Shown: positions 6,859-39,911 of the stretch, in pieces
Position numbering within the stretch: position 1 is the first letter of the stretch
How the letters are laid out: each line of letters starts with the position of its first letter
DNA from: Pseudomonas caricapapayae
Lineage (GTDB): Bacteria; Pseudomonadota; Gammaproteobacteria; Pseudomonadales; Pseudomonadaceae
Reading direction: 5' to 3'
Length of the DNA stretch: 64,000 nt
Assembly: GCF_001400735.1 (NCBI RefSeq)
Contig: NZ_LJPW01000059.1
Coordinates: 1 to 64,000 of the forward strand
Notes under the pieces: model-generated
Databases searched by the model: none
What the model was told of the DNA's origin: nothing
The model's input: only the letters and a program-made list of their open reading frames with translations
Made by a program: the position numbers and the translations under genes

Positions 6859-24634
<17,776 letters not shown>

Positions 24635-24638
<4 letters not shown>

Positions 24639-24792: not shown

Positions 24793-25473
24793 TCAGCAGG
24801 CCGAACAGGCGCCTTCGGATGAGCCATACATCCAGCGCATCAGCGAATGCCGACCGCTGATGCCCAGTTTGATGGCGGCGCGGCGCTGGTAACTGCCGAC
24901 CGTATTGACCTTCAGCGCAAGCCGTTCGGCCTGCTCGATAGCGGTGTGCCCGGCAAGCAGACCGATGCACACTTGCGTCTCCCGCTCGGACAATGTCAGA
25001 CCTGTTTCGCGCAGTCGATCATGAAAACGCGCTTCAACGCTTTCGGTTTTCTTAGGCTCGACATTGATCATGGTCAGTTGCAAGGCATTGACATGTTTTT
25101 CAAGTATCGAGAACAACAGTGGGGAAAGCGCACTTAACTGACGACGTTCACGGTCCGAAAACTCATGCGCCGGCAGCGCGCGGAATACCGTTATCTTGCA
25201 ACTGAAGTTTTCCGAGGCGTGGGCAGGATAAAGATGAATCGAGTCGTTCAGCAGCAAGGTCCCGCGCGACGACGTCACCGTTTCGTTGAACACCGTCGGT
25301 GCCAACGCGGTCAGTGTTTGCCAAGGCTGTGGCAGTGAAGAAAGGTGCGTGGCGTCCACGGCAAGCTGAGTGTCGATGAGCTTGTGGAACATGCTGGAAA
25401 AATGGCCGCTGCCGATGCTGGCGATGGCCCTGCCAATCTGCGGTAGTAAGGTATGAGGCATTGAGTCATCCAT
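24793..25473 (-). CDS. LuxR-type helix-turn-helix transcriptional regulator
   Basis: 226 residues. The C-terminal third is a typical LuxR/FixJ-type HTH: it starts LTLSERETQVCIGLLAGHT and continues through a recognition-helix region at about 180-205. The N-terminal 150 residues match no domain I can name; there is no clear receiver domain or autoinducer-binding signature. LuxR-type regulators commonly flank lipopeptide synthetase genes in Pseudomonas, and this gene converges on syfB with about 150 bp between, so a role in surfactant control is plausible. It could equally regulate the neighbouring aldehyde dehydrogenase block. A second in-frame ATG four codons downstream (25461) could be the true start, because the ribosome binding site is weak for either. 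Confidence 0.85.
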   Translation of the reverse strand: MDDSMPHTLLPQIGRAIASIGSGHFSSMFHKLIDTQLAVDATHLSSLPQPWQTLTALAPTVFNETVTSSRGTLLLNDSIHLYPAHASENFSCKITVFRALPAHEFSDRERRQLSALSPLLFSILEKHVNALQLTMINVEPKKTESVEARFHDRLRETGLTLSERETQVCIGLLAGHTAIEQAERLALKVNTVGSYQRRAAIKLGISGRHSLMRWMYGSSEGACSAC

Positions 25474-25743: not shown

Positions 25744-27180
25744 CTATTTGCCGAGCATGAGGCGGGTTATCAGGCGCGTCAGCCGTCCATAGGGGGCCGA
25801 GACCTTGTCGGACATGTTGAAGCGACTGAGCTTGAGAACGCCGCGGGCATGGGACAGGCGGACGAAGCCCTCATAGCCGTGATAGGCCCCGGTACCGCTT
25901 TGCCCGACGCCGCCGAACGGCAGATCATCCTGAGTGGCATGCAGCATGGTGCCATTGATGGTCACGCCGCCCGAATGTGTGCGGTTCAACACCAGATCCA
26001 CGGACGTCTTGTCGTTGGAAAAGCAGTACAGCGCCAGAGGTGCAGGACGCGCATTGATAAAAGCGATGGCTTCATCGAGGGAGTCATAGGCAAGTACCGG
26101 CAGCAATGGACCAAAAATCTCCTCATGCATCAGGTCTGCTTTCAAGGGCACCTGCGTGAGTGCCATGGGCGCAATCTTGCGCTCGCGGGTCGACACCGGC
26201 GCGTTGTGTTGCCAGGCCTTCGCCCCTGTTGCGATAGCCTGGCTGGCCATGGCCACAAGCCGGTCGTGGTGGCGCTGGGAAATGATCGAGGTGTAGTCCG
26301 GATTGCCATCGAGCGTCGGGTAAAGTTTTTTTGCTGCAGCCAGCCACTCGCTGGCAAAGCTGTTGACCTGTTCACGCGGGACGAGAACATGATCAGGCGC
26401 TACGCAGGTCTGACCGGCGTTGAACAGCTTGCCGATCGCGATCATCCGGGCGGCTTTTTTGATCGAAAAGTCATCGCATACCACAACTGGCGACTTGCCA
26501 CCCAGCTCCAGTGTCACCGGTGTCAGATTGCGCGCCGCTGCGGCCATGACCTGGCGACCTACCTGGGTCGAGCCGGTAAACAGCAGATGGTCGAAAGGCA
26601 GCTCACTGAATTGGCCCGCCAGCGCAGCGTCTCCAGTGACCACTACGACCTGTTCGGCGGGGAACGTCTCGCCCAGCAGTTGCTTGAGCAGTGCAGAGGT
26701 CAGGGGCGTCAATTCCGAAGGTTTGATCATCACCCGGTTGCCAGCCGCCAGGGCCTCGATCAACGGCACCAGCGTCAGCGTCAGCGGATAGTTCCACGGG
26801 GCCAGAACGCCGACAACGCCCAGCGGCTGATACATGACGTTGGCAGTAGCGGGCTTGAAGACGATACCGACCTTGCGCCGGGAAGGCCGCATCCACGCTT
26901 TGAGGTGCGCGCGAATATGCTTGATGCCATTGATGACAGGCATCAGCTCACCGAGTCTGGTTTCAGCGAACGAACGGTTGCCGAAGTCTGCACAGACCGT
27001 TTCGAGCAATCTGTCCTGATTGTCGCTGACCATGCGCAAAACAGCATTGAGGTGTGCAATTCGTTGAGCGTAGGAGGGTGCGCCCCGTGCCAGCACTGCA
27101 GCGCGCTGCGCCTCGAAAAGCTCGGTGAGCCCCGGGGCGGGAGACGGCGTGGTTAGCGTAATCCTTGCGGGCTGGTTCAT
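25744..27180 (-). CDS. Coniferyl-aldehyde-type NAD(P)-dependent aldehyde dehydrogenase
   Basis: 478 residues, full length for the aldehyde dehydrogenase superfamily. Visible family features are the cofactor-loop motif FTGSTQVG (201-208), catalytic Glu225 in ELGGKS and catalytic Cys259 in NAGQTC. The sequence resembles proteins annotated as coniferyl aldehyde dehydrogenase (CalB group), which oxidise aromatic or long-chain aldehydes to acids in the cytosol. The C-terminus (RLTRLITRLML) is hydrophobic and basic, as in fatty-aldehyde dehydrogenases that associate with membranes. The start ATG has GGAG seven bases upstream. The gene lies 153 bp downstream of a TetR gene on the same strand, an arrangement that recalls the laoC-laoR pair of long-chain alcohol oxidation in P. 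aeruginosa. No alcohol dehydrogenase partner is present, so the true substrate is open. Confidence 0.88.
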   Translation of the reverse strand: MNQPARITLTTPSPAPGLTELFEAQRAAVLARGAPSYAQRIAHLNAVLRMVSDNQDRLLETVCADFGNRSFAETRLGELMPVINGIKHIRAHLKAWMRPSRRKVGIVFKPATANVMYQPLGVVGVLAPWNYPLTLTLVPLIEALAAGNRVMIKPSELTPLTSALLKQLLGETFPAEQVVVVTGDAALAGQFSELPFDHLLFTGSTQVGRQVMAAAARNLTPVTLELGGKSPVVVCDDFSIKKAARMIAIGKLFNAGQTCVAPDHVLVPREQVNSFASEWLAAAKKLYPTLDGNPDYTSIISQRHHDRLVAMASQAIATGAKAWQHNAPVSTRERKIAPMALTQVPLKADLMHEEIFGPLLPVLAYDSLDEAIAFINARPAPLALYCFSNDKTSVDLVLNRTHSGGVTINGTMLHATQDDLPFGGVGQSGTGAYHGYEGFVRLSHARGVLKLSRFNMSDKVSAPYGRLTRLITRLMLGK

Positions 27181-27333: not shown

Positions 27334-28020
27334 TCATTTGCCGGTTTCAACGCCAGGCTCGGACACCAGACGATCCAGATGGCTGACGATCATCGCCGCC
27401 ACCAGTGCGCAGGTCTCTGCCGGGTCCAGGGGCTCATCGAACAACAATTCGATGGTGGCGTGAATCATTTCTACTGCGACACGGGCAACCATGGCTATTC
27501 GCGCGGGATCGGCTTCGGGAATAGCGCTGGCAATAATAGCGGCCTGGGCTTTGGATACCCGGCGGTGGGAGTCGAGGCGCACATGTTCCAGTGCAGGAAC
27601 TGCCCTTAATGCCTTGAGTGTCCACATACCACCCAACGTGGCGTCGGTAACCCGGTAGGTATCCAGAATCAACTCGGCGAGGGCCTGCTCCAGAGCCTGC
27701 GGCGTACCCGCGATCAGCTCGGGGGTGATCCAGTGATCGATACGCTCGTTCTGCTTCTCAAGCAGGCGTTCCCCCAGCACCGTCAACAGCGCGTATTTGT
27801 TGGGGAAATAGCGATACAGCGCAGGGGGTGTAAGACCTGCCCGCTCGCATACCAGGTTGGTGGACAAGCGCTCTATGCCGACTTCGCACAAGGTTTTGGC
27901 CGTGGCGACCAGAATGCGTTCGTACGTCTCGGTAGCGCGCTGCTGCGCCGGCAGCTTCTTGCGCTCTGCGGTTTTCCCTGCGATCTGCGCAGGAGCGGTT
28001 TCAGTGTTCAGCCTGGCCAT
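27334..28020 (-). CDS. TetR-family transcriptional regulator
   Basis: 228 residues. The N-terminal HTH spans about 28-80: it starts RATETYERILVATAKTLCEVG and ends with the typical recognition segment TPPALYRYFPNKYAL. The remaining helical part would be the ligand pocket. It is divergent from the seven-gene operon beginning with the DUF2147 gene, with 162 bp between, and a perfect 16-bp palindrome (28090-28105) lies in that gap. The dehydrogenase gene is the next gene downstream on the same strand. The simplest reading is a repressor of both arms that senses a substrate of the pathway, probably an aldehyde, acid or sugar derivative. Target and ligand are inferred from position only. Confidence 0.88.
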   Translation of the reverse strand: MARLNTETAPAQIAGKTAERKKLPAQQRATETYERILVATAKTLCEVGIERLSTNLVCERAGLTPPALYRYFPNKYALLTVLGERLLEKQNERIDHWITPELIAGTPQALEQALAELILDTYRVTDATLGGMWTLKALRAVPALEHVRLDSHRRVSKAQAAIIASAIPEADPARIAMVARVAVEMIHATIELLFDEPLDPAETCALVAAMIVSHLDRLVSEPGVETGK

Positions 28021-28089
28021 AAGTACCTGTCAAGAAAGAGTGGGGCGCCAGCATGACGGTCGAAAAAAACAGTTGCTCGCCGGTAAAAT

Positions 28090-28105
28090 GATAGTTATAA
28101 CTATC
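28090..28105. promoter_or_regulatory. Perfect 16-bp palindrome, probable TetR operator
   Basis: GATAGTTATAACTATC is identical to its reverse complement. It lies in the divergent promoter region between the TetR gene and the DUF2147 gene. A partial copy of the half-site (CTATCATAACT) follows at 28118-28128. Size and location fit a TetR-dimer operator; binding is inferred. Confidence 0.65.
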
Positions 28106-28182
28106 GTGTAGCGATGACTATCATAACTGAAGCGTCGTTAATGTGACGGTCTGTTAAAACAAAAAATAAAAAAGGTGACCCT

Positions 28183-28608
28183 ATGAACGCACGGCAATGG
28201 CTTTTCCTCTCTTCGGTTCTGATGTGCTCTCCCGGCATTCATGCGGCTGCAGGTCCGCTGGAGGCAAAGGGGCTTTGGCTGACGGCGGAAAAAGACGCCG
28301 TGGTCAGGCTTGACGACTGCGCGGACAAGCCAGGCGCTATCTGCGGACAGGTTGTCTGGGTCAAGGATGTTGCTTCGGGCAGCAGTGACTGCGGTGTGCA
28401 GATCCTGCAACTGTCCCGTTATGACCAGGATGCCTGGCGCGATGGCTGGGTGTATGACCCCCGTGATCAGAAAAAATATAAGGGTGCCGTCCGGGTCAAG
28501 GACGGACGCCTCAATGTAAGGGCTTTTGTCGGCACCGAAGTCCTCGGCAAGACAGAGCAATTCGAGCGTATCGCAACACTGCCTCCTGCCCCGGTTTGCA
28601 AACTGTAA
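28183..28608 (+). CDS. DUF2147 family secreted protein
   Basis: 141 residues with a clear signal peptide (hydrophobic core about 5-20, cleavage probably near HAAA at 20-23). The mature part matches the DUF2147 pattern: a leading GLW, a central GQVVWVKD segment, then DGWVYDPRDQKKYKG and a C-terminal FERI. Such proteins are periplasmic or exported and of unknown function. Four cysteines (mature region) could form disulphides. The start has AGGTGA five bases upstream. It is the first gene of a seven-gene same-strand run, 28 bp before the outer-membrane protein gene, and directly follows the probable TetR operator. No catalytic role can be assigned. Confidence 0.85.
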   Translation: MNARQWLFLSSVLMCSPGIHAAAGPLEAKGLWLTAEKDAVVRLDDCADKPGAICGQVVWVKDVASGSSDCGVQILQLSRYDQDAWRDGWVYDPRDQKKYKGAVRVKDGRLNVRAFVGTEVLGKTEQFERIATLPPAPVCKL

Positions 28609-28636
28609 ATCCGGCCCTTTAGCGTGGGAGAGAATC

Positions 28637-29518
28637 ATGCACACTTATACATTCCGTTATGTAATGGCTGCAGCACTGTGCTCTGCAGCAGGCTCGAACC
28701 TGGCTATCGCCGATGAAATGTCCAGCTACGCGGTGGATATCACTGCCAAGGCCAGCTCTGACATACGTACTCGAGGCATTTCCGATTCCCTGAATCGACC
28801 GGGCGCCAGGGTGACCATTCAGGTCGCTCATGAAACAGGCCTGGTGGCGCTCGCCGAATTTTCCACCGTCAGCAAAAAACAGTTCCTCGACGGTGATGGT
28901 CTGGGCGTGCTGCTCGCCGGCGGGTATCGCTTCGGTGATCCCGACGCCTGGCACTACGGCGTGGGGCTGGCGGCCGAGATGTTCCCGGGGGCTCAGTTCA
29001 AAGCGCCCAATCGCTTCGATTTCGAAACGTTCACGCCGGGCGACCAGCATACGACAAATTACAACAGCCAGTTTGCTGTGCTCGAAGTCGGCTATGGCGC
29101 GCTTGAAGGACGAATCGCCCGGGTTCTGTCGAAGAACTACCGGGGTGCCAACAGCGGTGGTGTATGCGGGGCGCAATTGCAGTTCAACGAAGACCCGACC
29201 AAAGGCCTGGAATGCTATGCCAAGGGTGACCGCAATTCCCGGGGCAGCCTGTTGTATGACCTGGATTACAAATACGCTCTGGGCATCAATACCCAACTCA
29301 AGTTGCACGCCGGTTATCAGCAGATCGCCAACTTCTCGGAAGCAGATTTCGCTGATTATGGTGCAGGGCTGGTTCATCACTGGTGGGGGTTTGACTGGGG
29401 TCTCGACTGGGTAACGACCAAAACCAGGGCACGTGAGCTGTATATGGCCGAGGACGACGGGCATGTGCGGAGCACGGACGGCAATCGCTGGGTAGCGTCG
29501 ATTTCCCGCACATTCTGA
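28637..29518 (+). CDS. TorF-like outer-membrane beta-barrel protein (putative porin)
   Basis: 293 residues from the ATG preceded by GGGAGAG. The signal peptide (about 1-26) ends near NLAIADE. The rest is rich in alternating polar and aromatic strands and ends in a terminal Phe (SISRTF), the classic signal for outer-membrane barrel insertion. The start of the mature chain (SYAVDITAKASSDIRTRGIS) resembles the conserved Proteobacterial TIGR02001/TorF group, thought to form small-molecule channels. It sits between the DUF2147 gene and the kinase gene with gaps of 28 and 10 bp. Its likely job is uptake of the compound handled by the kinase, aldolase and aminotransferase. Substrate unknown; the family call is moderate. 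Confidence 0.75.
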   Translation: MHTYTFRYVMAAALCSAAGSNLAIADEMSSYAVDITAKASSDIRTRGISDSLNRPGARVTIQVAHETGLVALAEFSTVSKKQFLDGDGLGVLLAGGYRFGDPDAWHYGVGLAAEMFPGAQFKAPNRFDFETFTPGDQHTTNYNSQFAVLEVGYGALEGRIARVLSKNYRGANSGGVCGAQLQFNEDPTKGLECYAKGDRNSRGSLLYDLDYKYALGINTQLKLHAGYQQIANFSEADFADYGAGLVHHWWGFDWGLDWVTTKTRARELYMAEDDGHVRSTDGNRWVASISRTF

Positions 29519-29528
29519 GTAGACCTTT

Positions 29529-31157
29529 ATGACTTCGCTTTTCATTTCCCGGACGCCTGAGGCGGCCACCGGCCTGGAGCAGCTCGTCCTCGCTATCGAC
29601 CTTGGAACCTCTGGTTGCAAGTGCGCACTGGTCTCCATGGACGGTGACATCCGGGCCTGGGCGTTTCATGGTGTGCCGTTGCACGTCAGTGGCCTGAGTG
29701 CAGAGCAGGAACCCGAGGACTGGTGGAATGCGTTTCTGCTCGGGGCCAGCGAATTGCTGGGCGCAGATCCGCTCAGACGTCGCCAGGTGGTGGCCATCTG
29801 CTGCTCCACTCAAAGTGAAGGCACGGTGTGTGTCGACCGCAACGGTGTTGCGGTCGGCCGGGCATTGCTGTGGCTGGACAAGCGCGGTGCCGACTCCATC
29901 AAAAAGCGTATGGGCGGGGGCTGGTGCAATCTGGGCGGCTACGGGCCGCTCAAACTCTGGCGTTCGTTGCGACTGACAGGCGGGGTGGCGTCACTGTCCG
30001 GGATGGACTCGGCCGGGCACATGGCTTACATCCTTGATCATGACCCGGCACGCTATGAAAAGACCCACAAGTTTTTGAATGTGCTCGATTACATGAACAT
30101 GCGTCTGTCGGGGCGCTACTGTGCAACGGGCGACTCGATGCTGACCGCCTGGATTACCGACAATCGTGACCCGCACAGCATTCGCTACGATGACGGCCTT
30201 ATCAGGGCGCTGGGCATTGATGCTGGCAAGCTGCCTGATCTGGTCGGCTCGACAGAAGTCATCGGCACACTGAAACCCGAGCTTGCAACGGTACTGGGGC
30301 TGCCACGATCAACGCCGGTGGTTGCAGGAGCCGTCGACACCTCGGCAGTCGCTGTTGGCGCGACGGTGCGTGACTTCGCTCCGCACCTTTATCTGGGCAC
30401 CTCGTCCTGGGTAGGCGCGCATGTACCGTTCAAGAAATCCAGTGTCCGTCACCATATTGCTGCGGTTCCCAGTGCGGTCAAAGGCCGCTATCTGGCAATG
30501 GCCATGCAATCGGCCGCAGGGGCCAACCTGTCGTTTCTACGCGACAAAGTGCTCTATCACCCGGACGAATTGTTGAGTGATGAACAGCAGCCCGATGTAT
30601 ATGCCTTGCTTGACCGCATCGCAGCCAGAGTGCCACCGGGTTCGCGGGGGCTGATCTACACGCCCTGGTTGTGTGGCGAACGCTCTCCGGTAGGTGACCC
30701 GAGCCTGCGTGCCGGGTTGATCAACCTGAAGCTCGAACACTCCAGGGAAGACATCATCCGGGCCTTCATGGAAGGCGTTGCGCACAACACTCGCTGGATG
30801 CTGGAACCGTTCTCGCGGTTTATCGGCCAGTCGAGTGGAATCATCGTGGCCACCGGTGGCGGAGCGCAATCGGATGTGTGGTGCCAGATCATGGCCGATG
30901 TCTGCGGGCGGGTCATCCAGCAACCGCATAACCCTATTCAAACCAACGCACGCGGTGCCGCTTTCATCGCTGCGGTAGCGCTCGAAAAATTGCAGTTTAC
31001 CGATCTTCCGGCGTTGCAGAGGCCTCATCGGCTGTACGAACCATCACCGTCGATCCGCAGCCTGTATGACGACCGCTTCGCGACGTTCAAGGAAGTCCGC
31101 AAACGCCTGGCACCGCTCTATCGCAGGTTGAACCCATCGCAGGAGACGACACCATGA
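29529..31157 (+). CDS. FGGY-family carbohydrate kinase (xylulokinase-like)
   Basis: 542 residues. The first ATP-binding motif LAIDLGTSGCKC (21-32) and the second-domain segment with the likely catalytic base Asp270 (GAVDTSAVAVG) are both present. So is the phosphate-binding region GGGAQSDVW near 440-450. The family phosphorylates polyols or ketoses such as xylulose, ribulose, fuculose or glycerol in the cytosol. Residues 375-400 (YTPWLCGERSPVGDP) match the xylulokinase branch. It is followed at once, by an ATGA overlap, by a class II aldolase. A kinase-aldolase pair like this usually means phosphorylation of a ketose and then cleavage to dihydroxyacetone phosphate and an aldehyde. The actual sugar cannot be read from the sequence. 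Confidence 0.85.
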   Translation: MTSLFISRTPEAATGLEQLVLAIDLGTSGCKCALVSMDGDIRAWAFHGVPLHVSGLSAEQEPEDWWNAFLLGASELLGADPLRRRQVVAICCSTQSEGTVCVDRNGVAVGRALLWLDKRGADSIKKRMGGGWCNLGGYGPLKLWRSLRLTGGVASLSGMDSAGHMAYILDHDPARYEKTHKFLNVLDYMNMRLSGRYCATGDSMLTAWITDNRDPHSIRYDDGLIRALGIDAGKLPDLVGSTEVIGTLKPELATVLGLPRSTPVVAGAVDTSAVAVGATVRDFAPHLYLGTSSWVGAHVPFKKSSVRHHIAAVPSAVKGRYLAMAMQSAAGANLSFLRDKVLYHPDELLSDEQQPDVYALLDRIAARVPPGSRGLIYTPWLCGERSPVGDPSLRAGLINLKLEHSREDIIRAFMEGVAHNTRWMLEPFSRFIGQSSGIIVATGGGAQSDVWCQIMADVCGRVIQQPHNPIQTNARGAAFIAAVALEKLQFTDLPALQRPHRLYEPSPSIRSLYDDRFATFKEVRKRLAPLYRRLNPSQETTP

Positions 31158-31837
31158 GTCACGTCCAACAACAGATCGTCGACCTGTCGCGGCATCTTTC
31201 ACGCCGCGGCTTCTTTGCCGCTACCGGCGGCAATCTGGCGCTGCGGATCGACGCGCTGCACATCGCGGTCACACCGTCGGCCACCGACTACTTCAGCATG
31301 CGCCCGGAAGATGTCTGCGTGCTGCGACTCAAGGATCTGAAGCAATTGTCGGGAGAACGCTCGCCCTCGGTAGAAAGCGAGCTGCATGCCAAAGTCCTGC
31401 GCAGTCGGCCGGATGTCAATTGCAGTATCCATACCCATCAACCACTGGCCAGCGCCTGCACATTGTTCGGCAAAGCACTGGACGTGCCTTACCCGCCGCT
31501 ATGGAAATCGCTGGGTAAACGCATTCAACTGGTGGGTTACGCACCGTCCGGCTCCGGCTGGCTCGCCGGCAAGCTCGGACGTGCCATTCGGCCTGACCAC
31601 AATGCCTACCTGATGCGCAACCACGGCGTCTTGTGTTGCGGCCCGGATATCGAGACCACCCTGACGCGCCTGGAGGATCTGGAAACATTCTGTCGTGACC
31701 ATCTTCTCAACCAGATCAAAGTCAATACCCGTGGAAAACCTGAGTCACGCGCCGCAGTAGCCCGACTGATCAGTGCCTTGACCAGCTCCAGCTCGCACGC
31801 ACTCAGCCCTCAGACTTTTTCAGAGACTCAATCATGA
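31154..31837 (+). CDS. Class II aldolase (FucA/AraD family), metal site intact
   Basis: 227 residues, the usual size of fuculose-phosphate aldolase-type enzymes. Key residues align with the FucA active site: catalytic Glu74 (SVESELH), zinc ligands His93 and His95 (SIHTHQP) and His157 (RNHGVL). The phosphate-binding motif GNLALR (26-31) is also present. These zinc enzymes cleave ketose phosphates or epimerise pentulose phosphates in the cytosol. Start and stop overlap both neighbours by ATGA (kinase upstream, aminotransferase downstream), so the three proteins should be made in fixed ratio. The substrate is presumably the kinase product. Methylthioribulose dehydratases share this fold, so a lyase role cannot be excluded. 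Confidence 0.85.
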   Translation: MSHVQQQIVDLSRHLSRRGFFAATGGNLALRIDALHIAVTPSATDYFSMRPEDVCVLRLKDLKQLSGERSPSVESELHAKVLRSRPDVNCSIHTHQPLASACTLFGKALDVPYPPLWKSLGKRIQLVGYAPSGSGWLAGKLGRAIRPDHNAYLMRNHGVLCCGPDIETTLTRLEDLETFCRDHLLNQIKVNTRGKPESRAAVARLISALTSSSSHALSPQTFSETQS

Positions 31838-33315
31838 ACAAACCTCTTGATCCTGCCCGCGTGCCTGAAATTCCCGAATCGGCTGTATCGCAATGGCCCG
31901 ATGTCGATTCACTCTACCGCCGGTTCGACGAACTGGTGAAGCAACCCATACGCCCCATCAAGCGTGAAGCGATGAGCAAGGTCATGGGTTATTTCGACGA
32001 ACGCTGTCAGGGTTCGAAGCGCCTTTCCGAGGCCGCCAAAAAAGTCATACCGGGAGGCGTGCAGCACAACCTCGCATTCAACTATCCGTTTCCGCTGGCT
32101 TTCTCCCAGGCCAAGGGTGCGCACCTGACGGATGTCGATGGCAATCGCTACACCGATTTTCTCCAGGCAGGCGGCCCTACCTTGCTGGGATCGAATCACC
32201 CGGCCATTCGCGAACAGGTCAACCGTATCCTCGACGAGTGCGGACCGGTGACCGGCTTGCTGCATGAGTACGAGGTCAAGCTGGCCGAACTGGTCTGCCA
32301 AGTGATGCCGGGTGTGGACATGCTGCGCCTGCTGGGCTCGGGAACTGAGGCGGTGATGGCAGCGGTTCGTCTGGCCCGCGCCTATACCCGCAAGAAGTGG
32401 GTAATCAAGATTGGCGGAGCCTATCACGGCTGGAGCGATCAGCTTGTCTATGGCATGCGCCTGCCGGGCACCGGCCGCATGGAAGCCGTGGGCATTCCGC
32501 GAGGTGCCACTGCAAATACGCAGGAAAGCCCGCCCAATAATCTCGACGCATTGCGCCGCAGGCTGCAGATCAATCGCTTGCGTGGTGGCACCGCAGCAAT
32601 CATGGTCGAACCCTTTGGCCCGGAAAGTGGCACCCGCCCGGTGCATGCAGACTTCAACCGACAGTTGCGGGCACTGTGCAACGAGTTCGACGCGCTACTT
32701 ATTTTCGACGAGGTGGTCACCGGATTCCGCGCGGGACTGGGTGGCGCACAAGCTTATTTCAACGTTATGCCGGACATTACGGTACTGGGTAAATGCCTGA
32801 CGGGGGGCTACCCCATGGCAGGTGCCATTGGCGGACGCAGGGACGTGATGCAGCTGCTTGCCGGTGGTATCGGCACATCTTCCCGGCGGGCTTTTGTCGG
32901 CGGGACGCTGTCGGCCAACCCGCTGTCGTGTGTGGCCGGTTATTACGCGCTGCTCGAAGCACGCCGTCTGAACGCACCGGCGCTGGCGGGCAGGGCGGGC
33001 GACCGCATGCGCGCAGGGCTGGACGAAATCATCAACCGGCGCGGCTTGCCCTACGTGGCGTACAACATGGGCTCCATCGTGCATCTGCAGACTTCCGGCG
33101 TGTTGCTGCTCGACACCGGTAATCCGCTCAAGCTGCTCAGAGCACGTAATGAGGCCAAGACCCGCAAGCACATGATGGAGGAGATGGGCGCGGCCTATAC
33201 CGCTCACGGCCTTGTGACCCTGGCGGGCAGCCGCCTGTACACCAGCCTGGCGGACACTGACGATGTAATCGATGACGCTCTCGAGCGGTTCGACACTGTT
33301 TTTCAACTGGTGTGA
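31834..33315 (+). CDS. Class III aminotransferase, glutamate-1-semialdehyde 2,1-aminomutase-like
   Basis: 493 residues. The PLP-binding Lys is Lys320 in TVLGKCLTGGYP, the cofactor-contacting Asp is in LIFDEVVTGFR and GSGTEAVMAA is the phosphate-binding loop. This signature set is closest to HemL-type glutamate-1-semialdehyde aminomutases, but the protein is about 65 residues longer, with an N-terminal extension (1-70) ending just before SKRLSEAAKKVIPGG. It lies inside a sugar-type operon rather than with tetrapyrrole genes, so it probably transaminates an aldehyde or ketone made by the neighbouring aldolase. HemL-like enzymes outside haem synthesis occur in several natural-product and amino-sugar pathways. 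The start overlaps the aldolase stop (ATGA). Confidence 0.87.
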   Translation: MNKPLDPARVPEIPESAVSQWPDVDSLYRRFDELVKQPIRPIKREAMSKVMGYFDERCQGSKRLSEAAKKVIPGGVQHNLAFNYPFPLAFSQAKGAHLTDVDGNRYTDFLQAGGPTLLGSNHPAIREQVNRILDECGPVTGLLHEYEVKLAELVCQVMPGVDMLRLLGSGTEAVMAAVRLARAYTRKKWVIKIGGAYHGWSDQLVYGMRLPGTGRMEAVGIPRGATANTQESPPNNLDALRRRLQINRLRGGTAAIMVEPFGPESGTRPVHADFNRQLRALCNEFDALLIFDEVVTGFRAGLGGAQAYFNVMPDITVLGKCLTGGYPMAGAIGGRRDVMQLLAGGIGTSSRRAFVGGTLSANPLSCVAGYYALLEARRLNAPALAGRAGDRMRAGLDEIINRRGLPYVAYNMGSIVHLQTSGVLLLDTGNPLKLLRARNEAKTRKHMMEEMGAAYTAHGLVTLAGSRLYTSLADTDDVIDDALERFDTVFQLV

Positions 33316-33325
33316 GGTGAACACC

Positions 33326-33946
33326 GTGCGCGATCTACTTCGAAAACAATGGCTTGAGCTGCGCGAACGCCTGATGGGTCAGGCGGACTCGCACAGCAGT
33401 GTCTCATTGCGGTTACCGGGCGAGCAGGGCATGTGGCTCGGCAAGCTCGACGACCTGGCACCGCAGGCCGTCGCCTGGTCCGATCCTGCGCAAGACGAGC
33501 GCCAGACCCATGCGGCTATTTATCGGGCACGTGCCGATGTCGGCGCCATCCTGATCGGCGGCGGGGCTTTCGCAAAAAGTCTGGTCGATTTTGGCGGCGT
33601 CCTGCCGATTCTATTTGATGAGCAGGCACGCCACATAGGCCACATGGGCTCGCCCGCCAGTCCCGATCAGTCCCTGGCGCGTGCGTTGACGCGTGGCGGT
33701 AATGCCGCCGTCATCGATGGCACGCCGGTGGTCATGGGGACTACCGGTGCCCGAATGGTGCTCAACGCTGAATTGTTCGAAAAATGCGCCAAAGCGTACA
33801 CCTTGGCCAAGGCATGCGGCACCCACCTCACGCTATTGCCCTGGTGGGTGGTGCTGGTCGCCAACGGAAGGCTGATGAAAGACGAGAAGCGGGCCGCGCA
33901 GTGTTTTGCCGACGGCAAGATCCCGCCTGAAACCCGCGGTTACTGA
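33326..33946 (+). CDS. Degenerate class II aldolase/adducin-like protein without metal ligands
   Basis: 206 residues from GTG 33326, chosen because GAGGTGA sits five bases upstream. An earlier GTG at 33317 is possible. The fold signature is recognisable (QTHAAIYRARADVGAIL, like the ESxLHxxIYRxRPDVxAV of class II aldolases), and the Glu equivalent (Glu58) and following His62 remain. The metal-binding HxH is replaced by Gly78-Gly79-Gly80 (ILIGGGAFA), and the later NHG His is also missing (VVMGTTGARM). It is therefore unlikely to bind zinc in the usual way. Its place right after the aminotransferase suggests a structural or regulatory partner of the intact aldolase, or an enzyme that has changed chemistry. 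Gap to the preceding gene is 10 bp. Confidence 0.72.
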   Translation: MRDLLRKQWLELRERLMGQADSHSSVSLRLPGEQGMWLGKLDDLAPQAVAWSDPAQDERQTHAAIYRARADVGAILIGGGAFAKSLVDFGGVLPILFDEQARHIGHMGSPASPDQSLARALTRGGNAAVIDGTPVVMGTTGARMVLNAELFEKCAKAYTLAKACGTHLTLLPWWVVLVANGRLMKDEKRAAQCFADGKIPPETRGY

Positions 33947-33968
33947 TACTTCCGAAGAGGCACATGGC

Positions 33969-35144
33969 ATGCAAACGTCGTCCGCTGTAACTCGCAGACA
34001 TCTGAGTGCCGCCCTGGCACTGGGCTCGGTCGCGGTGTTGATGGTAGGCCTGCAACCGCTGCTTCTGGGCGAACTGCTCGCGCAACGTCATGTGTCACTC
34101 GAAGGCGTCGGGCTCGTCGCCATGGGCGAAATCGTGGCGCTGGGGCTGGGCGTGGTACTGGGTGACTTGCTGCGGTCGATGCTCAACCTGCGTCTGCTTA
34201 CGGTCATCGCGATCTTTTGCGCAGCCGGGATGGACCTTGTCACGGCCAACGTAACTGGCGACGGACCATTAACGGCAGCGCGGGCGCTGGCGGGACTGGC
34301 CGAGGGTCTGCTGTTGTGGGGGGCGGTCAGCCTGATTGTTCAGGGGCCTGCGCCGGATCGGGTGGCAGGTGTGTTCATGGTGGTTCAGACACTGGCTCAG
34401 GCACTGATAGCCGCAGCACTCGCGTACCTGATACTGCCTGATCAAAGTGTCTATGCCGGCTTTGTGTTTCTCGGGATTCTGACCGCAGGCTCCGTGCTGT
34501 TCGTTGCCTGGCTACCCATACGCCTGCCGCAACAGCCTGACAAACAACCGGAAGTATCAGGCTTCAAATGGAACCTGAAGCAGGTGCTGCTATTGATGTT
34601 GGTGTTCATGCAGCTCTCGGCGGTAGGCGGGCTTTGGGCGTACCTTGAGCCGCTGGGCATTCATGCGGGGCTGGATGCGCATTCAGCCCAGTTGCTGGTA
34701 TCCGCGATGTTGTTCATGCAGGTTCTGGGCGGGTGTCTGGGCATTCTGCTGGTGCGCCGGGTGCCTGACTATTCGATGCTGGCCGCCGCCGCACTGCTCC
34801 TGGCGAGCATTGCGCTGGGCATGTATATAACGGCTGATCAGGGCGTAACTGTATTTCTGGGCCTGTGCGGTCTTTTTGCCCTGATCTACCTGATGCTGAC
34901 GCCGTTTCAGGTGCGCATTGCGCTTCAAATCGACCCCTCGGGACGCATCGCCGGGCTCATTCCGGGCATGCAACTGCTGGGCTGCGCATTCGGACCGCTA
35001 TTGGCGTCGCAGTGGGTGTCTGGCGACAACGCTCAACCGGTGCTGCTGGTCAGTGTCTGGCTGTCGGTCACGGCGCTGTGTCTGATTGTGCTGTTGCATC
35101 GGCGGGCTGTCGGCAGACAGGTTGGTGTTGCACGTGGAGCGTGA
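33969..35144 (+). CDS. Major facilitator superfamily transporter
   Basis: 391 residues with about 12 predicted membrane segments and a charged central loop (about 195-212, LPQQPDKQPEVSGFK). No substrate signature is recognised; general organisation is that of sugar-efflux or drug-type MFS carriers of the inner membrane. The start ATG 33969 has AAGAGG about eight bases upstream; the overlapping ATG at 33964 is out of frame. It is the last gene of the seven-gene operon, 22 bp after the degenerate aldolase gene, and would move the pathway's substrate in or its product out. Confidence 0.85.
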   Translation: MQTSSAVTRRHLSAALALGSVAVLMVGLQPLLLGELLAQRHVSLEGVGLVAMGEIVALGLGVVLGDLLRSMLNLRLLTVIAIFCAAGMDLVTANVTGDGPLTAARALAGLAEGLLLWGAVSLIVQGPAPDRVAGVFMVVQTLAQALIAAALAYLILPDQSVYAGFVFLGILTAGSVLFVAWLPIRLPQQPDKQPEVSGFKWNLKQVLLLMLVFMQLSAVGGLWAYLEPLGIHAGLDAHSAQLLVSAMLFMQVLGGCLGILLVRRVPDYSMLAAAALLLASIALGMYITADQGVTVFLGLCGLFALIYLMLTPFQVRIALQIDPSGRIAGLIPGMQLLGCAFGPLLASQWVSGDNAQPVLLVSVWLSVTALCLIVLLHRRAVGRQVGVARGA

Positions 35145-35149
35145 CGGCG

Positions 35150-35416
35150 TAGCCATCGCGGATTCCGAGCGTGCCGGCCCAGGCGGAAATACTCAAGCTT
35201 CTGCAGACCCTGCGCCGTGATACTGGCATGACCACGATTCTGGTCAGCCATGACATCAACACCGTCGCCCATTTGTGCGATAGGGCAGTGCTGATCCGTC
35301 AAGAACGTGTCGAAAGGCATCGTGATCGTGTCGCTCTGGGTTCACTGGCAGAGGCAGCCTTTGACCGATCATCACCGGAATTTCATGTCAGAAGTGATAC
35401 AAAAAGCTACGTGTAG
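35150..35416 (+). pseudogene. C-terminal remnant of an oligopeptide-type ABC transporter ATPase
   Basis: About 80 codons match the last part of Dpp/Opp-type ATPases: AQAEILKLLQTLRR, then MTTILVSHDINTVAHLCDR with the switch His, then a degenerate tail. A TAG at 35150 closes the frame upstream. Walker A, the signature motif and Walker B are all missing, and no partner permease genes are present. A GTG at 35171 could be read as a start but no ribosome binding site supports it. This is a leftover of a deleted transporter operon and marks a recombination boundary just upstream of the achromobactin locus. Confidence 0.7.
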
Positions 35417-35560
35417 CGTTTTTCCGGCATTGATTTCTGGTCCGGGTGAATGACCCGGATGCGGCGCAGATCAACGCGTTGGAGGCGAATGACCCCGGTT
35501 TCACGCAGCGGCGACGGGCTTTTTGAAAAAAAGAGCGTGGACTCGGGATATAACACTAAT

Positions 35561-35579
35561 TAGAATCAGTCTCATTTGG
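35561..35579. promoter_or_regulatory. Fur-box-like site upstream of acsS
   Basis: Read on the minus strand, CCAAATGAGACTGATTCTA agrees with the 19-bp Fur consensus at about 11 positions. It lies 27-45 bases before the sigma-factor start codon, where Fur would block transcription when iron is plentiful. Binding is inferred. Confidence 0.5.
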
Positions 35580-35605
35580 CGCACCCATCGCTCAAGGCTT
35601 TTGAC

Positions 35606-36115
35606 ATGACTGAAGCAGCGACGCTCTCACAGCAGACCTTGCATTCCCTTTACCGCGATCATCATGGCTGGCTGGAAAGCTGGCTGCGCAAACGCATGGG
35701 GAATGCCTGGGATGCTGCGGACCTGAGTCAGGATACGTTCCTGCGTGTGCTGTCCAGCTCTCAGCAGATCGCCGATATGCAGGAGCCACGCGCGTACCTG
35801 CTGACCGTGGGCAAACGCCTGCTCAGTAATTTCTACACGCGGCGAAGCCTGGAACAGGCTTACCTGGAAGCACTGGCGCAGTTGCCTGAAGACAGCGTGC
35901 CGTCTCCCGAGCAGCGCTGGCTGCTGCTGGAAACCCTACAGGCGCTGGACGAGTTGCTCGACGGGCTGTCGGCAGTGGTGCGTCGCGCGTTTCTCTGGAG
36001 CCAGCTCGAGGGGCTGGGGTATCGGGAAATTGCAGAGCGCCTGGGTGTATCCGAACGTACTGTAAAACGTTACATGGCGCAGGCCTACGAACACTGCCTG
36101 CTGGTGGAGTGGTGA
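35606..36115 (+). CDS. acsS: ECF sigma factor, FecI/AcsS-like
   Basis: 169 residues. Region 2 spans about 5-75 (HSLYRDHHGWLESWLRKRMG, then DAADLSQDTFLRVL) and region 4 spans about 100-165 (GLGYREIAERLGVSERTVKRYM, the HTH that reads the -35 element). This is the FecI iron-starvation class. The ATG at 35606 has AAGG upstream and begins a normal region 2; a TTG ten codons earlier is less likely. The FecR-type gene overlaps its stop, and the TonB receptor follows. In P. syringae B728a the equivalent gene next to the achromobactin operon is called acsS and activates it. A Fur-like box lies just upstream. Confidence 0.9.
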   Translation: MTEAATLSQQTLHSLYRDHHGWLESWLRKRMGNAWDAADLSQDTFLRVLSSSQQIADMQEPRAYLLTVGKRLLSNFYTRRSLEQAYLEALAQLPEDSVPSPEQRWLLLETLQALDELLDGLSAVVRRAFLWSQLEGLGYREIAERLGVSERTVKRYMAQAYEHCLLVEW

Positions 36116-37077
36116 TTCGCTCGACCCCTTCCAGCGAAGAACGCGAGGTAGTACGCAGGGCGGCGCAGTGGCTCGCGCTTCTGGAATCCGGCGGTGCCAG
36201 CGAAGAAGATCACGCCATGCTGCAGCACTGGCGCGATAGCTCTGCCAGTCATGAGCGCGCCTGGCAAAAGGCGCAACAGCTGCGGCAGCGTTTTTTCGGC
36301 CTGCCTGCCAATCTGGCTATGGCTACTCTGGATCGTCCCGACAAGGCAAGACGCGCGGCGCTCAAACGGGCGCTGGGCGCTGTCGCACTGGTCCCTACCG
36401 CCTGGCTGGTGGGCCGTCAGCTGCCACTGGATGTCTGGCGCGCCGACCTGCAAACCTCCGTCGGCGAACACAAGCGCCTGTCGCTAGCCGATGGCAGCAC
36501 CTTGCAACTGAACACAGACAGCGCGGTAAACGTCGATCTGGGTGCACGCCGAATCAGCCTTGTGCGGGGTGAGATAGCACTCAAGGTGCCGGGCAGTGCA
36601 GCGCTGACAATCAACGGTCCTTACGGGCGCATCGTGGTCAGTCAGAGCGAAGTCTGTGTACGTCTCAACGAAAGCGACTGCCGCGTATCGGTGGTCAGCG
36701 GTCTGGTGCAACTTTATCCGTTGCAGGGGCCCGTGCTGGCATTGCGTGCGCAACAGCAGGTCAGCCTCAGGCAGAGCGGAGCAGGGCCGGTCAGCGCCTT
36801 CGACGCCTTGCTGCCCGGCTGGCGAGACGATGTATTGACCGCGCAGAACCAGCAACTGGGGGATTTCCTGCGTGAGCTGGGTCGCTATCGTCCCGGCTTG
36901 TTGCGCTGGGAACCGGCACTTGAAACCCTGCGAGTGACGGGCAGTTTCAGGCTCGACAATACCGACCGCGTACTTTCGTTGCTGGCTGCCAGCCTGCCGG
37001 TGGAGGTGCAGATGCGTACCCGCTACTGGGTCACGCTGGTGCCTCGAAAAAACATTTCGACAAAAAATAATGCGTGA
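36109..37077 (+). CDS. FecR-type anti-sigma factor / transmembrane sensor
   Basis: 322 residues. It has an N-terminal cytoplasmic sigma-binding domain (about 10-60, WLALLESGGASEEDHAMLQHW), one membrane segment near 85-105 (AVALVPTAWLVGRQL region), and a periplasmic FecR domain (about 110-210) beginning TSVGEHKRLSLADGSTLQLNTDS. The C-terminus ends in a DUF4974/STN-like segment (VTGSFRLDNTDRVLSLLAAS). It holds the adjacent sigma factor inactive, or activates it, according to the state of the TonB receptor. The GTG at 36109 or the one at 36112 overlaps the acsS stop, so the two are translationally coupled. Confidence 0.9.
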   Translation: MVIRSTPSSEEREVVRRAAQWLALLESGGASEEDHAMLQHWRDSSASHERAWQKAQQLRQRFFGLPANLAMATLDRPDKARRAALKRALGAVALVPTAWLVGRQLPLDVWRADLQTSVGEHKRLSLADGSTLQLNTDSAVNVDLGARRISLVRGEIALKVPGSAALTINGPYGRIVVSQSEVCVRLNESDCRVSVVSGLVQLYPLQGPVLALRAQQQVSLRQSGAGPVSAFDALLPGWRDDVLTAQNQQLGDFLRELGRYRPGLLRWEPALETLRVTGSFRLDNTDRVLSLLAASLPVEVQMRTRYWVTLVPRKNISTKNNA

Positions 37078-37147
37078 AGCTGTCCCTTTTTTTTGTCTCG
37101 CTGGTCATTTCAGGTAAGTGCACAAAAAAATACGAGAGTTTCCCTCT

Positions 37148-39550
37148 ATGTCCGCAGTGTCTTCCTACCGTTTGCGTCCGCTTTTGCATTTCAGCCTTTT
37201 GCTGACGTTGAGTTCCAGTCCGTTGTTTGCCTCGACCAGTTGGGCCGAAACCTCGGGCAGGCGTGCCTATGAAGTGCCTGCCGGCAGCCTGAGCGCCGCG
37301 CTTACCCGTTTTGCCGGTCAGGCCGGGGTCAACCTGTCGGTAGATCCCGCATTGGTGAACGGTCGAAACAGTTCAGGTCTGTCTGGCGAGTTTGCGGTTG
37401 AGGAAGGGTTTGCACGCCTGCTGCAAGGTTCCGGCCTGCAACTGGTGCCGGTCGGTGAACAGGCCTACACACTGGTCCCGGCCCCTGAAGGCGCTGGTTT
37501 GCAACTCGCACCTACCTCGATTGTCGGTGATAGCGGTTCTACGGACGGCCAGGAGTACGCAGGTGGCCAGGTGGCCCGCAAAGGTTCGCAAGGGATGCTG
37601 GGTTCTCGGGATTTCATGGAAACGCCTTTCAGCATGACCACTTACACCAAGGACGCGGTGAAAAACCAGCAGGCCCGCACCCTGGGCGACCTGATTGCCA
37701 GCGATCCTTCGGTACGTGCCACCAACCCGGCAGGCGGGCGCTACGAACAGTTCACCATTCGCGGCTTCAGCCTGTTCAACAGTGATGTCTCCTACAACGG
37801 CTTGTACGGCATCCTGCCCACCTACACGATCGACATGGAAATGGCCGAACGGGTGGACATTCTCAAGGGACCAAGCCAGTTGATTAATGGCATTTCGCCG
37901 CGCGGCAGTGTCGGCGGCGGAATCAACGTGGTCCCCAAGCGTGCAACGGATAAACCCATCACCGAGCTGACCACCAGCTATGCCTCCAAAGGGCAGGCGG
38001 GCGCAGCCGTGGATGTGGCACGCCGGTTCGGTGAAGACGACAAGTTCGGTATCCGTTTCAACGGCGTCAAACAGTCCGGCGACACGGAATGGGATCATCA
38101 GAGCGTTGATCGCGACATGGCCGTGCTGGGCCTGGATTTCCGCGGCGACCGTCTGCGTCTGTCAACGGATATCGGGCACACCGAACGTGACACCGATGCC
38201 CCTCAGGAGCGCGTGCAGGTAGGTGCCAATGCGAAGGTACCGAATGCCAACGATGTTCGTGACAACTATGCGCAGTCCTGGAGCAAGGCACGTACCCGGG
38301 ATACCTTCGGCGCAGTGAATGCCGAATATGATCTCAGCGACTCGGTCATGCTGTACGGCGGTGTCGGTGCGCGTAAGAGTAACCACGATTTCCTTCGTCA
38401 TGCGGTATCGGTCACCAACGATGCAGGCGACTTCAGCGTTCAGCCGCGTGACTTCACGCGTGACGAAAATGTCCGCACGGCCACCGCTGGCGTGCGCAAC
38501 TGGTTCCATACCGGGCCGGTCAGTCACGAAGTCAATCTGGCCGCCAGTTATTTCTATATGGACTTTGAAAACGGCGGTGCACGTTATGCTGCCGCGCCCA
38601 GCAATCTCTATAACCCGGTCGATACGCCGACACCTGCCAACCCCACGCGTGCCGACTCCAAGGTTTACACAGAAAACCGTTTCAGCGGCGTTGCCCTTAC
38701 CGACACACTGGGTTTCTTCGATGATCGCCTTCTGCTGACACTCGGTGCGCGCTGGCAACGCGTCAAGGTTGATGACTGGACCGACGACGTCAAAGGCGAC
38801 ACGGCATACGACGAGGAAAAGGTCTCTCCATCAGGCGGCATTCTGTACAAGGTGACCGACGATCTGTCCGTGTACGCCAATTACATGGAAGGCCTGAGCC
38901 AAGGCAAGATCGCTCCGTCGACCTCGGTGAACGAAGACCAGATCTTCCCGCCGTTCGTCAGCCGGCAGGTTGAGGTGGGGGCCAAGTATGACCTGGGGTC
39001 ATACGCCTTCACCGCCAGCGTATTCCGGATCAAGCAACCAGCCTATGAAACCAATACGACGTCGCGAGTCTTTGGTCCGAACGGCAAGCGCCGCAACGAT
39101 GGTGTCGAGCTGACCATGTTCGGCGAACCTCTCAAGGGCTTCCGCCTGCTGGGCGGTCTGATGTACATCGACAGCGAACTGACCAACACCGTCAACGGTG
39201 CGTTCGACGGCAACCGGGCTCCGGCCACACCCAAATACAACGTCAATCTGGGGGCCGAATGGGACGTGCCAAGCGTCAAGGGCCTGACCCTGACCGGCCG
39301 TGGCATCTATACCGGCTCGCAGTACCTGGACCAGGCCAACAGCAAAAGCATCGACTCTTCCGAGCGCTTCGACGTAGGCGCGCGGTATGCGTTCAAGGTC
39401 GATCAGAAGGACATCACGTTGCGCGCCAACGTCGAGAACGTCATGAATAAGTACTACTGGAGTTCGGCCGGCGCATCGGATGACAGCGAACCGGGGCTGA
39501 CCCTGTCGACACCCAGGACCTATCTGCTTTCAGCCACTATCGGGTTCTGA
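37148..39550 (+). CDS. TonB-dependent ferric-siderophore receptor with signalling domain (achromobactin receptor)
   Basis: 800 residues from ATG 37148, which has a GAGAG about nine bases upstream. Signal peptide about 1-35. A secretin/TonB short N-terminal domain follows (about 42-95, YEVPAGSLSAALTRFAGQAG), the part that signals to FecR. The plug domain (about 145-270) includes TIRGFSLFNSDVSYNGLYG and ERVDILKGPSQLINGISP. The C-terminal barrel ends in Phe (SATIGF). It is an outer-membrane receptor that takes up a ferric hydroxycarboxylate siderophore using TonB energy. It lies between acsS/fecR-type genes and acsF, so ferric achromobactin is the likely ligand. Confidence 0.92.
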   Translation: MSAVSSYRLRPLLHFSLLLTLSSSPLFASTSWAETSGRRAYEVPAGSLSAALTRFAGQAGVNLSVDPALVNGRNSSGLSGEFAVEEGFARLLQGSGLQLVPVGEQAYTLVPAPEGAGLQLAPTSIVGDSGSTDGQEYAGGQVARKGSQGMLGSRDFMETPFSMTTYTKDAVKNQQARTLGDLIASDPSVRATNPAGGRYEQFTIRGFSLFNSDVSYNGLYGILPTYTIDMEMAERVDILKGPSQLINGISPRGSVGGGINVVPKRATDKPITELTTSYASKGQAGAAVDVARRFGEDDKFGIRFNGVKQSGDTEWDHQSVDRDMAVLGLDFRGDRLRLSTDIGHTERDTDAPQERVQVGANAKVPNANDVRDNYAQSWSKARTRDTFGAVNAEYDLSDSVMLYGGVGARKSNHDFLRHAVSVTNDAGDFSVQPRDFTRDENVRTATAGVRNWFHTGPVSHEVNLAASYFYMDFENGGARYAAAPSNLYNPVDTPTPANPTRADSKVYTENRFSGVALTDTLGFFDDRLLLTLGARWQRVKVDDWTDDVKGDTAYDEEKVSPSGGILYKVTDDLSVYANYMEGLSQGKIAPSTSVNEDQIFPPFVSRQVEVGAKYDLGSYAFTASVFRIKQPAYETNTTSRVFGPNGKRRNDGVELTMFGEPLKGFRLLGGLMYIDSELTNTVNGAFDGNRAPATPKYNVNLGAEWDVPSVKGLTLTGRGIYTGSQYLDQANSKSIDSSERFDVGARYAFKVDQKDITLRANVENVMNKYYWSSAGASDDSEPGLTLSTPRTYLLSATIGF

Positions 39551-39911
39551 GTCGAATCGGGTCCTAAACCGACGCGAGTGCCCAGGGACGGGCTTACCCG
39601 CGTGCTGAACAAACTGGAAGTACGCAACGAGGTATAAACAGGCAGCGATAACATAATCAATGTAGCGACAGTGACAGAAGCATCGGTTATTTCAATATTC
39701 TGTTTCTGCGTTGTAGACCTGTCACACGTGCCCATCCAAGTAAAGGCACTTTAAATATTACCGATCTTAAGACTGGCCCGTTCGCGCGCCTTGCAACTTA
39801 TCGCGCGCGCACGCTCGGACATTTAAATTTTCATCGTATTTTTAATACAACGGGTTGCACTTTCAGGGAAATGATAATAGTTTGCATCCGGAATCCAGCG
39901 AGGACTTACAG
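39551..39911. other. Intergenic region between receptor gene and acsF
   Basis: 361 bases with no credible gene. The second half is A+T-rich (for example ATTTAAATTTTCATCG near 39821) and contains the probable acsF promoter and a Fur-box-like site at 39867-39885. No clear terminator for the receptor gene is seen. Confidence 0.6.
39867..39885. promoter_or_regulatory. Fur-box-like site upstream of acsF
   Basis: GGAAATGATAATAGTTTGC matches the 19-bp Fur consensus at 13 positions, including an unbroken AATGATAAT. It is 27-45 bases before the acsF ATG and includes a -10-like GATAAT, so Fur-iron would be expected to block the achromobactin operon. Confidence 0.65.

Follow-up and report, generated by a model that had tools for sequence, protein, structure and literature searches.

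What compound is processed by the seven-gene operon at positions 28183-35144 of the Pseudomonas caricapapayae sequence analysed here? The window, that is, the whole stretch of 64,000 nucleotides (contig NZ_LJPW01000059.1, positions 1 to 64,000), encodes in this operon a DUF2147 protein, a putative outer-membrane channel, an FGGY kinase, a class II aldolase, a class III aminotransferase, an aldolase paralogue (the aldolase-like protein) and a transporter of the major facilitator superfamily (MFS), all in the same direction and with intergenic gaps of 28, 10, -4, -4, 10 and 22 bp (Table 1). A preliminary description had presented the seven genes as a TetR-gated operon behind a perfect palindrome; the gene order, the gaps and the divergent TetR gene were confirmed. 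The unit and the chemical roles assigned to it (transamination, phosphorylation, C-C cleavage and aldehyde oxidation) stood. The plant sugar or amino sugar named as substrate gave way to, most likely, sphingoid bases, since the neighbouring genes in other species indicated sphingolipids and the arginine typical of glutamate-1-semialdehyde (GSA) aminotransferases was lost. The operon probably degrades sphinganine, phytosphingosine and sphingosine, by a predicted route in which the head is deaminated, phosphorylated and then split off by an aldolase.

The window genes were assigned to families by Pfam, with NCBIfam and PDB sequence comparisons added. A search of genome contigs with the aminotransferase returned 203 relatives, and the locus counts use the best 80 of these 203; the 80 loci were picked by similarity and are therefore not a random sample. 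The kinase-aldolase-aminotransferase-aldolase-like block was complete and in the same order in 80 of 80 loci, so that the gene-order conservation proposed as a check was borne out; in L034, two core genes missed by the gene caller were recovered by tblastn. The hosts were Gamma-, Beta- and Alphaproteobacteria and one member of the Acidobacteriota (Granulicella, L070), and the same block was found on a Burkholderia plasmid. When the other window genes were sought in the 80 loci by tblastn (E 1e-10), MFS was found in 66, TetR in 61, DUF2147 in 49, TorF in 49 and the aldehyde dehydrogenase (ALDH) family in 41. In two loci of the P. fluorescens group, the MFS gene was fused to a short-chain dehydrogenase (L009 10103-12109 and L017 10138-12108). 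The window aminotransferase was 98% identical to its P. amygdali counterpart (L005), which by similarity places the genome in the P. syringae group. A sample of 299 genomes from the phylum gave matches at E 1e-140 in only four, all of them Pseudomonas, indicating that the block is patchy. The claim that this is a distinct block without a named pathway held, and no description of it was found in the open-licence PubMed Central literature.

The genes beside the block carried the case for sphingolipids. Neighbouring genes were called with our own script and clustered; 77 unlabelled neighbours were listed across 17 of the 80 loci, and 17 of these genes, plus a few others, were scanned against Pfam. 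The neighbours that recurred encoded a cytochrome c, a flavin adenine dinucleotide (FAD) oxidase of the ALO type, a pyridoxal phosphate (PLP) protein with the alanine-racemase fold, a regulator of the AraC type and a neutral ceramidase. A sphingolipid marker (SphC, ceramidase or endoglycoceramidase) lay within 8 kb of the block in 21 of the 80 loci, a count that depends on endoglycoceramidase having been sought in only some of them. SphC relatives were present in 19 loci, SphD in 18, the cytochrome c in 17 and the neutral ceramidase in 5, with SphC or ceramidase in 20. By chance, SphC would be expected beside the block in 0.06 of 80 loci, a rough estimate that ignores relatedness. The ceramidase was related to a neutral ceramidase of solved structure, 2zws (E 1e-118), which we take to be the P. 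aeruginosa enzyme. In an Oxalobacteraceae locus (L083), a gene for an 873-aa GH5 endoglycoceramidase relative (6jyz, E 7e-93; 2osx, E 4e-24) stood directly before the kinase. A sphingoid-base substrate is proposed because relatives of ceramidase, endoglycoceramidase and sphBCD adjoin the block in these other lineages; such gene context is good evidence for the family and indirect evidence for the window itself.

The identity of the cytochrome, oxidase and PLP genes was examined in loci of relatives fetched from Pseudomonas genomes. Two of these (L107 and L119) showed the order cytochrome c, FAD oxidase, PLP protein, convergent outer-membrane protein and AraC gene, and a third (L118) had this gene set interrupted by a transposase-like gene. 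The PLP gene of L119 gave no match, and the outer-membrane protein of L107 belonged to the phenol-degradation family. The P. aeruginosa sph locus comprises the sphB cytochrome, sphC oxidase and sphD PLP enzyme genes, a convergent sphA, and sphR (excerpts of PMC3900636). By gene order and family, the block-linked cytochrome c, oxidase and PLP genes are thus sphBCD. In the P. alcaligenes group, the SphC and SphD proteins encoded beside the block shared 70-74% and 73-77% identity, respectively, with those of other Pseudomonas; SphC relatives of Betaproteobacteria and marine Gammaproteobacteria were 38-48% identical to the SphC of this group. In Marinobacterium, Amphritea, Rhodoferax, Acidovorax and Pseudoduganella, the genes formed a single run, DUF2147-TorF-kinase-aldolase-aminotransferase-aldolase-like-MFS-ALDH-sphB-sphC-sphD, to which some loci added an extra short-chain dehydrogenase/reductase (SDR) or DUF2147 gene. 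Loci of the P. alcaligenes group had DUF1329-DUF1302 and mostly also sphBCD on the flanks of the block, with the ceramidase present too in five of the 80 loci. Positions 8105-17376 of L105 (sphBCD, AraC, DUF1302, DUF1329 and ceramidase, with no block) offer a natural comparison. A second alanine-racemase-fold protein (AlaR20), 22-25% identical to SphD, adjoined the block in 8 of the 80 loci. The SDR protein SDR22 was considered as a 3-ketosphinganine reductase and is not claimed as such, the best 60 of its 608 PDB matches being generic short-chain dehydrogenases. On a tree of 83 aminotransferase rows built by a quick method, at least 10 changes were needed to explain the sphingolipid linkage, 5 of them forced by well-supported branches, indicating that the linkage arose or was lost repeatedly.

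The enzymes themselves were examined for features that bear on the chemistry. The FGGY domains of the kinase exceeded their Pfam cut-offs (117 and 102 bits), and its best NCBIfam match, xylulokinase (TIGR01312), scored 225 bits, below the cut-off of 380. Residues D24, D117, R119 and D270 of the kinase and E74, H93, H95 and H157 of the aldolase were invariant in 83 of 83 rows; we take the kinase aspartates and the aldolase glutamate to be catalytic and the three histidines to bind the metal. The top NCBIfam relatives of the aldolase, all under cut-off, were MtnB, fuculose-1-phosphate aldolase and ribulose-1-phosphate aldolase, whose substrates are ketose 1-phosphates, and it is predicted to be a ketose-1-phosphate aldolase. 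The aminotransferase scored 279 bits against the HemL family TIGR00713 (cut-off 527 bits) and was the second-best HemL match in a genome with a separate true hemL. In 82 of 83 rows, the motif QHNL[AS]FN replaced the SPVRAF of HemL (row L079 gave no pattern match); a Butyrivibrio aminotransferase also carried QHNL[AS]FN, and the window genome's own HemL retained SPVRAF. The arginine of SPVRAF is presumably Arg32 of HemL, which binds the substrate carboxylate, and its loss suggests a substrate without a carboxylate at that position. Among PDB relatives of the aminotransferase were GSA aminomutases (E 1e-67) and the 'aminopentol aminotransferase' 6hbs (E 3e-26), which we take to be FumI. A structure model of the aminotransferase was too poor (pLDDT 52) and was not used. 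The aldolase-like protein had the class II aldolase fold and lacked the metal histidines. Residues of its own were invariant across 19 sequences (FDEQxRHxG and EKC), which suggests that it is under selection, and our guess is that it is a partner subunit of the aldolase.

These families fit a route through a pseudo-sugar. Sphingoid bases, plant and animal lipids with antimicrobial activity, have a 2-amino-1,3-diol head, and removal of the amino group leaves HOCH2-CO-CHOH-R, a ketose head. From enzyme families, catalytic residues and neighbourhood, we infer the following sequence. The TorF channel and the MFS carrier would admit a sphingoid base, the aminotransferase would convert the 2-amino-1,3-diol to a ketose-like 1,3-dihydroxy-2-ketone, and the FGGY kinase would phosphorylate C1 of this keto-diol. 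The class II aldolase would then split the 1-phosphate into dihydroxyacetone phosphate (DHAP) and a long-chain aldehyde (a 2-hydroxy aldehyde from phytosphingosine), and the class 3 ALDH would oxidize the aldehyde to a fatty acid. Alternatively, the kinase may act before the aminotransferase. The minus-strand ALDH had been suggested to oxidize the aldehyde released by the aldolase, and this part was supported: the window enzyme is of class 3, with PDB matches to a steroid aldehyde dehydrogenase (9nxl, E 2e-100) and a fatty aldehyde dehydrogenase (4qgk, E 4e-89), and thus fits the last step. A precedent for the first step is FumI, which removes the C2-amino group of hydrolysed fumonisin, a sphingoid-like backbone (excerpts of PMC2933618).

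Several results weighed against sphingoid bases as the substrate. In the window's own genome, no match was found to an SphC-type FAD oxidase (E 1e-60), to the ceramidase, to AlaR20 or to SphD (E 0.001, in a search without a positive control genome), and the loci of the closest relatives (L005-L008) held no sphingolipid-specific gene. None of the three markers was found in 59 of the 80 loci (endoglycoceramidase not having been sought everywhere), and two genomes (G067 and G161; loci L105 and L106) carried sphBCD with DUF1302 and DUF1329 and without the block. Among 249 Pseudomonas genomes, the block aminotransferase was present in 15, SphC (E 1e-60) in 60 and the ceramidase in 4. The block and SphC shared 5 genomes (3.6 expected, p 0.28), indicating that SphC is a frequent neighbour and not a general companion; the block and the ceramidase shared 2 (0.24 expected, p 0.02), with p-values that ignore shared ancestry. 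In addition, the nearest structures to the aminotransferase were GSA aminomutases, far better matches than the FumI-type 6hbs; some neighbours were of sugar type, namely an alpha-galactosidase with a solute-binding protein (L077) and a galactarate dehydratase (L026); and phytosphingosine inhibits P. syringae pv. tomato (excerpts of PMC8776846).

The co-occurrence results also bore on the possibility that the block acts on a small product left by SphBCD rather than on the sphingoid base. The gene runs in which sphBCD follows the block in several lineages would fit such a role, and excerpts of PMC11893366 state that the SphBC product is unknown and name sphBC-independent systems as open. However, the window genome has the block and no SphC or SphD match, showing that the block seems not to need them, and genome-wide co-occurrence with SphC was at chance; we regard this explanation as very unlikely. 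SphBCD as an obligate partner was rejected on the same two results. In P. alcaligenes-type loci, an AraC-FMO-SDR set adjoins the block, and its flavin monooxygenase (FMO) behaved differently from SphC: at E 1e-150 it was present in 9 of the 249 genomes, 8 of which were among the 15 block genomes (0.54 expected, p 1.7e-10, shared ancestry ignored). In G126 it lay about 1.1 Mb away from the block. The window's own genome carried an AraC-FMO-SDR set on another contig (L136 5797-8501 and L137 185-2442), 67-82% identical to the P. alcaligenes-type genes. When an SphR-like AraC regulator was sought in the own genome, the best match, likewise on another contig, was 34% identical; this protein shared 67-71% identity with its AraC counterpart in the P. 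alcaligenes-type locus.

The sugar-type neighbours point to another explanation, in which the block degrades a sugar-like or amino-sugar-like compound and the sphingolipid genes reflect growth on glycosphingolipids or plant debris, the block handling the sugar or inositol-glycan parts. FGGY kinases and class II aldolases are classical sugar enzymes, and endoglycoceramidase also releases glycans. Against this, the P. alcaligenes-group neighbours were ceramidase and sphBCD, the latter including sphBC, which is tied to sphingoid bases themselves (excerpts of PMC11893366); no sugar isomerase was found among the ten recurrent neighbours scanned; and the window ALDH was near fatty aldehyde dehydrogenase. 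A sugar-like substrate is therefore considered unlikely. A biosynthetic role had also been entertained, and here the ATP-using kinase together with the aldolase favours breakdown. In its explicit form, the block would run in reverse, joining DHAP to a long-chain aldehyde, adding an amino group and exporting a sphingoid-like amino lipid. Aldolases and aminotransferases are reversible, and an MFS carrier is present, but the kinase would be useless in that direction and the neighbours are degradative by homology, leaving this direction scarcely credible.

Degradation of sphingoid bases by the proposed route can be set beside four known systems. The L-rhamnose and L-fucose pathways use an isomerase, an FGGY kinase, a class II aldolase and an aldehyde dehydrogenase; they share with the operon the FGGY kinase and a class II ketose-1-phosphate aldolase that yields DHAP and an aldehyde. 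In the operon, however, a class III aminotransferase stands in place of the isomerase, and the kinase and aldolase score well under the sugar-family cut-offs. Eukaryote-type breakdown proceeds by sphingosine kinase and sphingosine-1-phosphate lyase, with the nitrogen kept as phosphoethanolamine. It likewise gives a long-chain aldehyde and a phosphorylated head, whereas here the nitrogen would leave first and the head would be released as DHAP; neither enzyme is encoded in the operon, the rest of the genome not having been searched for the lyase. In fumonisin catabolism, FumI takes the C2-amino group from the backbone, as proposed here; the operon's aminotransferase is a distant relative of it, and excerpts of PMC2933618 describe no kinase-aldolase step. 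The P. aeruginosa SphR regulon (sphA, sphBCD and cerN; excerpts of PMC3900636 and PMC11893366) acts on the same inferred substrate class, and relatives of its sphC or ceramidase gene are those that adjoin the block in 20 of the 80 loci. It uses a periplasmic oxidase, a cytochrome c, a PLP protein and an AraC activator; the window operon has none of its enzymes, its own enzymes showed no signal peptide by eye, and a TetR gene flanks it.

The operon is likely under TetR control, since the palindrome was conserved between the TetR gene and the operon across loci. The window contained a single occurrence of the 16-bp sequence GATAGTTATAACTATC, against 0.02 expected when up to 3 mismatches are allowed. 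Its inner 14 bases gave one genome match at no more than one mismatch and so did a reversed control pattern, making the genome-wide count uninformative. In the TetR-operon intervals of 56 other loci, the best match had 0 mismatches in 7 intervals, 1 in 16, 2 in 3, 3 in 14, 4 in 14 and 5 in 2, which gives 23 of 56 loci with at most one mismatch. The view that the seven genes form a single transcription unit behind a probable TetR operator was supported. Exact copies came from P. cerasi (L007) and from loci of the P. oryzihabitans group, whose TetR proteins were 63-66% identical in the best segment; the loci with one mismatch included those of the P. fluorescens group and the three close relatives L005, L006 and L008. 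A symmetric variant, TAGTCATGACTA, was present in 6 of the 56 intervals. TetR bound at the palindrome would repress the operon until a ligand appears. Between 27900 and 35600, 3 promoter-like sites were found, compared with 2.7 expected by chance.

Table 1. Features of the operon region in the window (plus and minus, strand).
Feature	Position	Strand	Basis or remark
Class 3 aldehyde dehydrogenase (ALDH)	25744-27180	minus	Pfam Aldedh
TetR-family regulator, divergent from operon	27334-28020	minus	Pfam TetR_N
Promoter-like site (weak), abutting the palindrome	28060-28089	plus	9/12 consensus matches
Perfect 16-bp palindrome, predicted TetR operator	28090-28105		conserved across loci
DUF2147 protein	28183-28608	plus	PF09917; signal peptide by eye
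TorF/Gcw_chp putative outer-membrane channel	28637-29518	plus	PF09694; TIGR02001 under its cut-off
FGGY kinase	29529-31157	plus	PF00370/PF02782
Class II aldolase, metal site intact	31154-31837	plus	PF00596
Class III aminotransferase	31834-33315	plus	PF00202
Aldolase paralogue without metal histidines	33326-33946	plus	weak class II aldolase relative by Pfam
MFS transporter, predicted carrier	33969-35144	plus	PF07690

The MFS family profile had no PDB sequence relative at E 0.001, and its assignment as a Spinster-type sphingolipid carrier was unsupported. No Rfam match was obtained at the gathering threshold between 24500 and 40000, and GC content gave no island signal, the operon region (0.58-0.62) lying inside the range of its surroundings. 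A short open stretch at 35147-35421, immediately past the MFS gene, resembled the end of an ATP-binding cassette (ABC) transporter ATPase (TTILVSHDINTVAHLCDRAVLI) and is apparently a gene remnant. Just past the operon, at 35576-41288, sigma factor, FecR-like and TonB-type receptor genes were recognized by eye, followed by a diaminobutyrate transaminase gene above the curated cut-off of PRK06931, and this region looks like a siderophore locus. Upstream, 6855-24638 encodes a nonribosomal peptide synthetase of 5927 aa with, by eye, two C-terminal thioesterase domains; we take this locus to be reminiscent of syringafactin-type lipopeptide loci. It is followed by a LuxR-type regulator gene with a GerE domain (24793-25473, minus strand).

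A related form of the block occurred outside the groups above. A Butyrivibrio plasmid (Clostridia; L086 5882-10479) carried the order kinase-aldolase-GtrA-aminotransferase and lacked the aldolase-like gene; about 5 kb further, past a transposase and other genes, lay a gene for an ALDH. A protein search with the Butyrivibrio aminotransferase, which scored only the 8000 candidates sharing most words, gave at least 7613 matches at E <=1e-120. Among the 120 matches listed, 119 had QHNLAFN and one had QHTLAFN; the few named rows listed included Treponema, Lachnospiraceae and Coriobacteriales, and labels, where given, were only GSA aminomutase or class III enzyme. Among metagenome proteins, this family is extremely abundant. 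This spread bears on whether the block instead degrades another 2-amino-1,3-diol or long-chain amino alcohol by the same chemistry, such as fungal sphinganine analogues of the fumonisin, AAL or myriocin type, with sphingolipid genes nearby since the compounds co-occur. The reaction of FumI, the aminopentol aminotransferase among the PDB relatives and the 59 loci without a marker would suit such a substrate. However, the ceramidase, endoglycoceramidase and sphBCD relatives indicate ordinary sphingolipids, and a common substrate would suit both the very large number of aminotransferase relatives and a block that extends beyond Proteobacteria to a single Acidobacteriota locus and a single plasmid of Clostridia, so that we give the analogues only a small chance.

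Sphingoid bases being the favoured substrate, the chances are about even that a widespread and previously undescribed bacterial pathway degrades them as pseudo-sugars, releasing the head as DHAP and keeping the nitrogen as amino acid, and that it runs in plant-associated Pseudomonas and Xanthomonas without adjacent sphBCD and, in one form, in very abundant gut and rumen anaerobes. The operon is a concrete candidate with defined, assayable chemistry. If the proposal is true, a lipid head would be handled in the manner of rhamnose and fucose breakdown, with an aminotransferase replacing the sugar isomerase, and a strongly conserved aminotransferase family would gain a function. It would further suggest that gut and rumen anaerobes could use dietary or bacterial sphingolipids.

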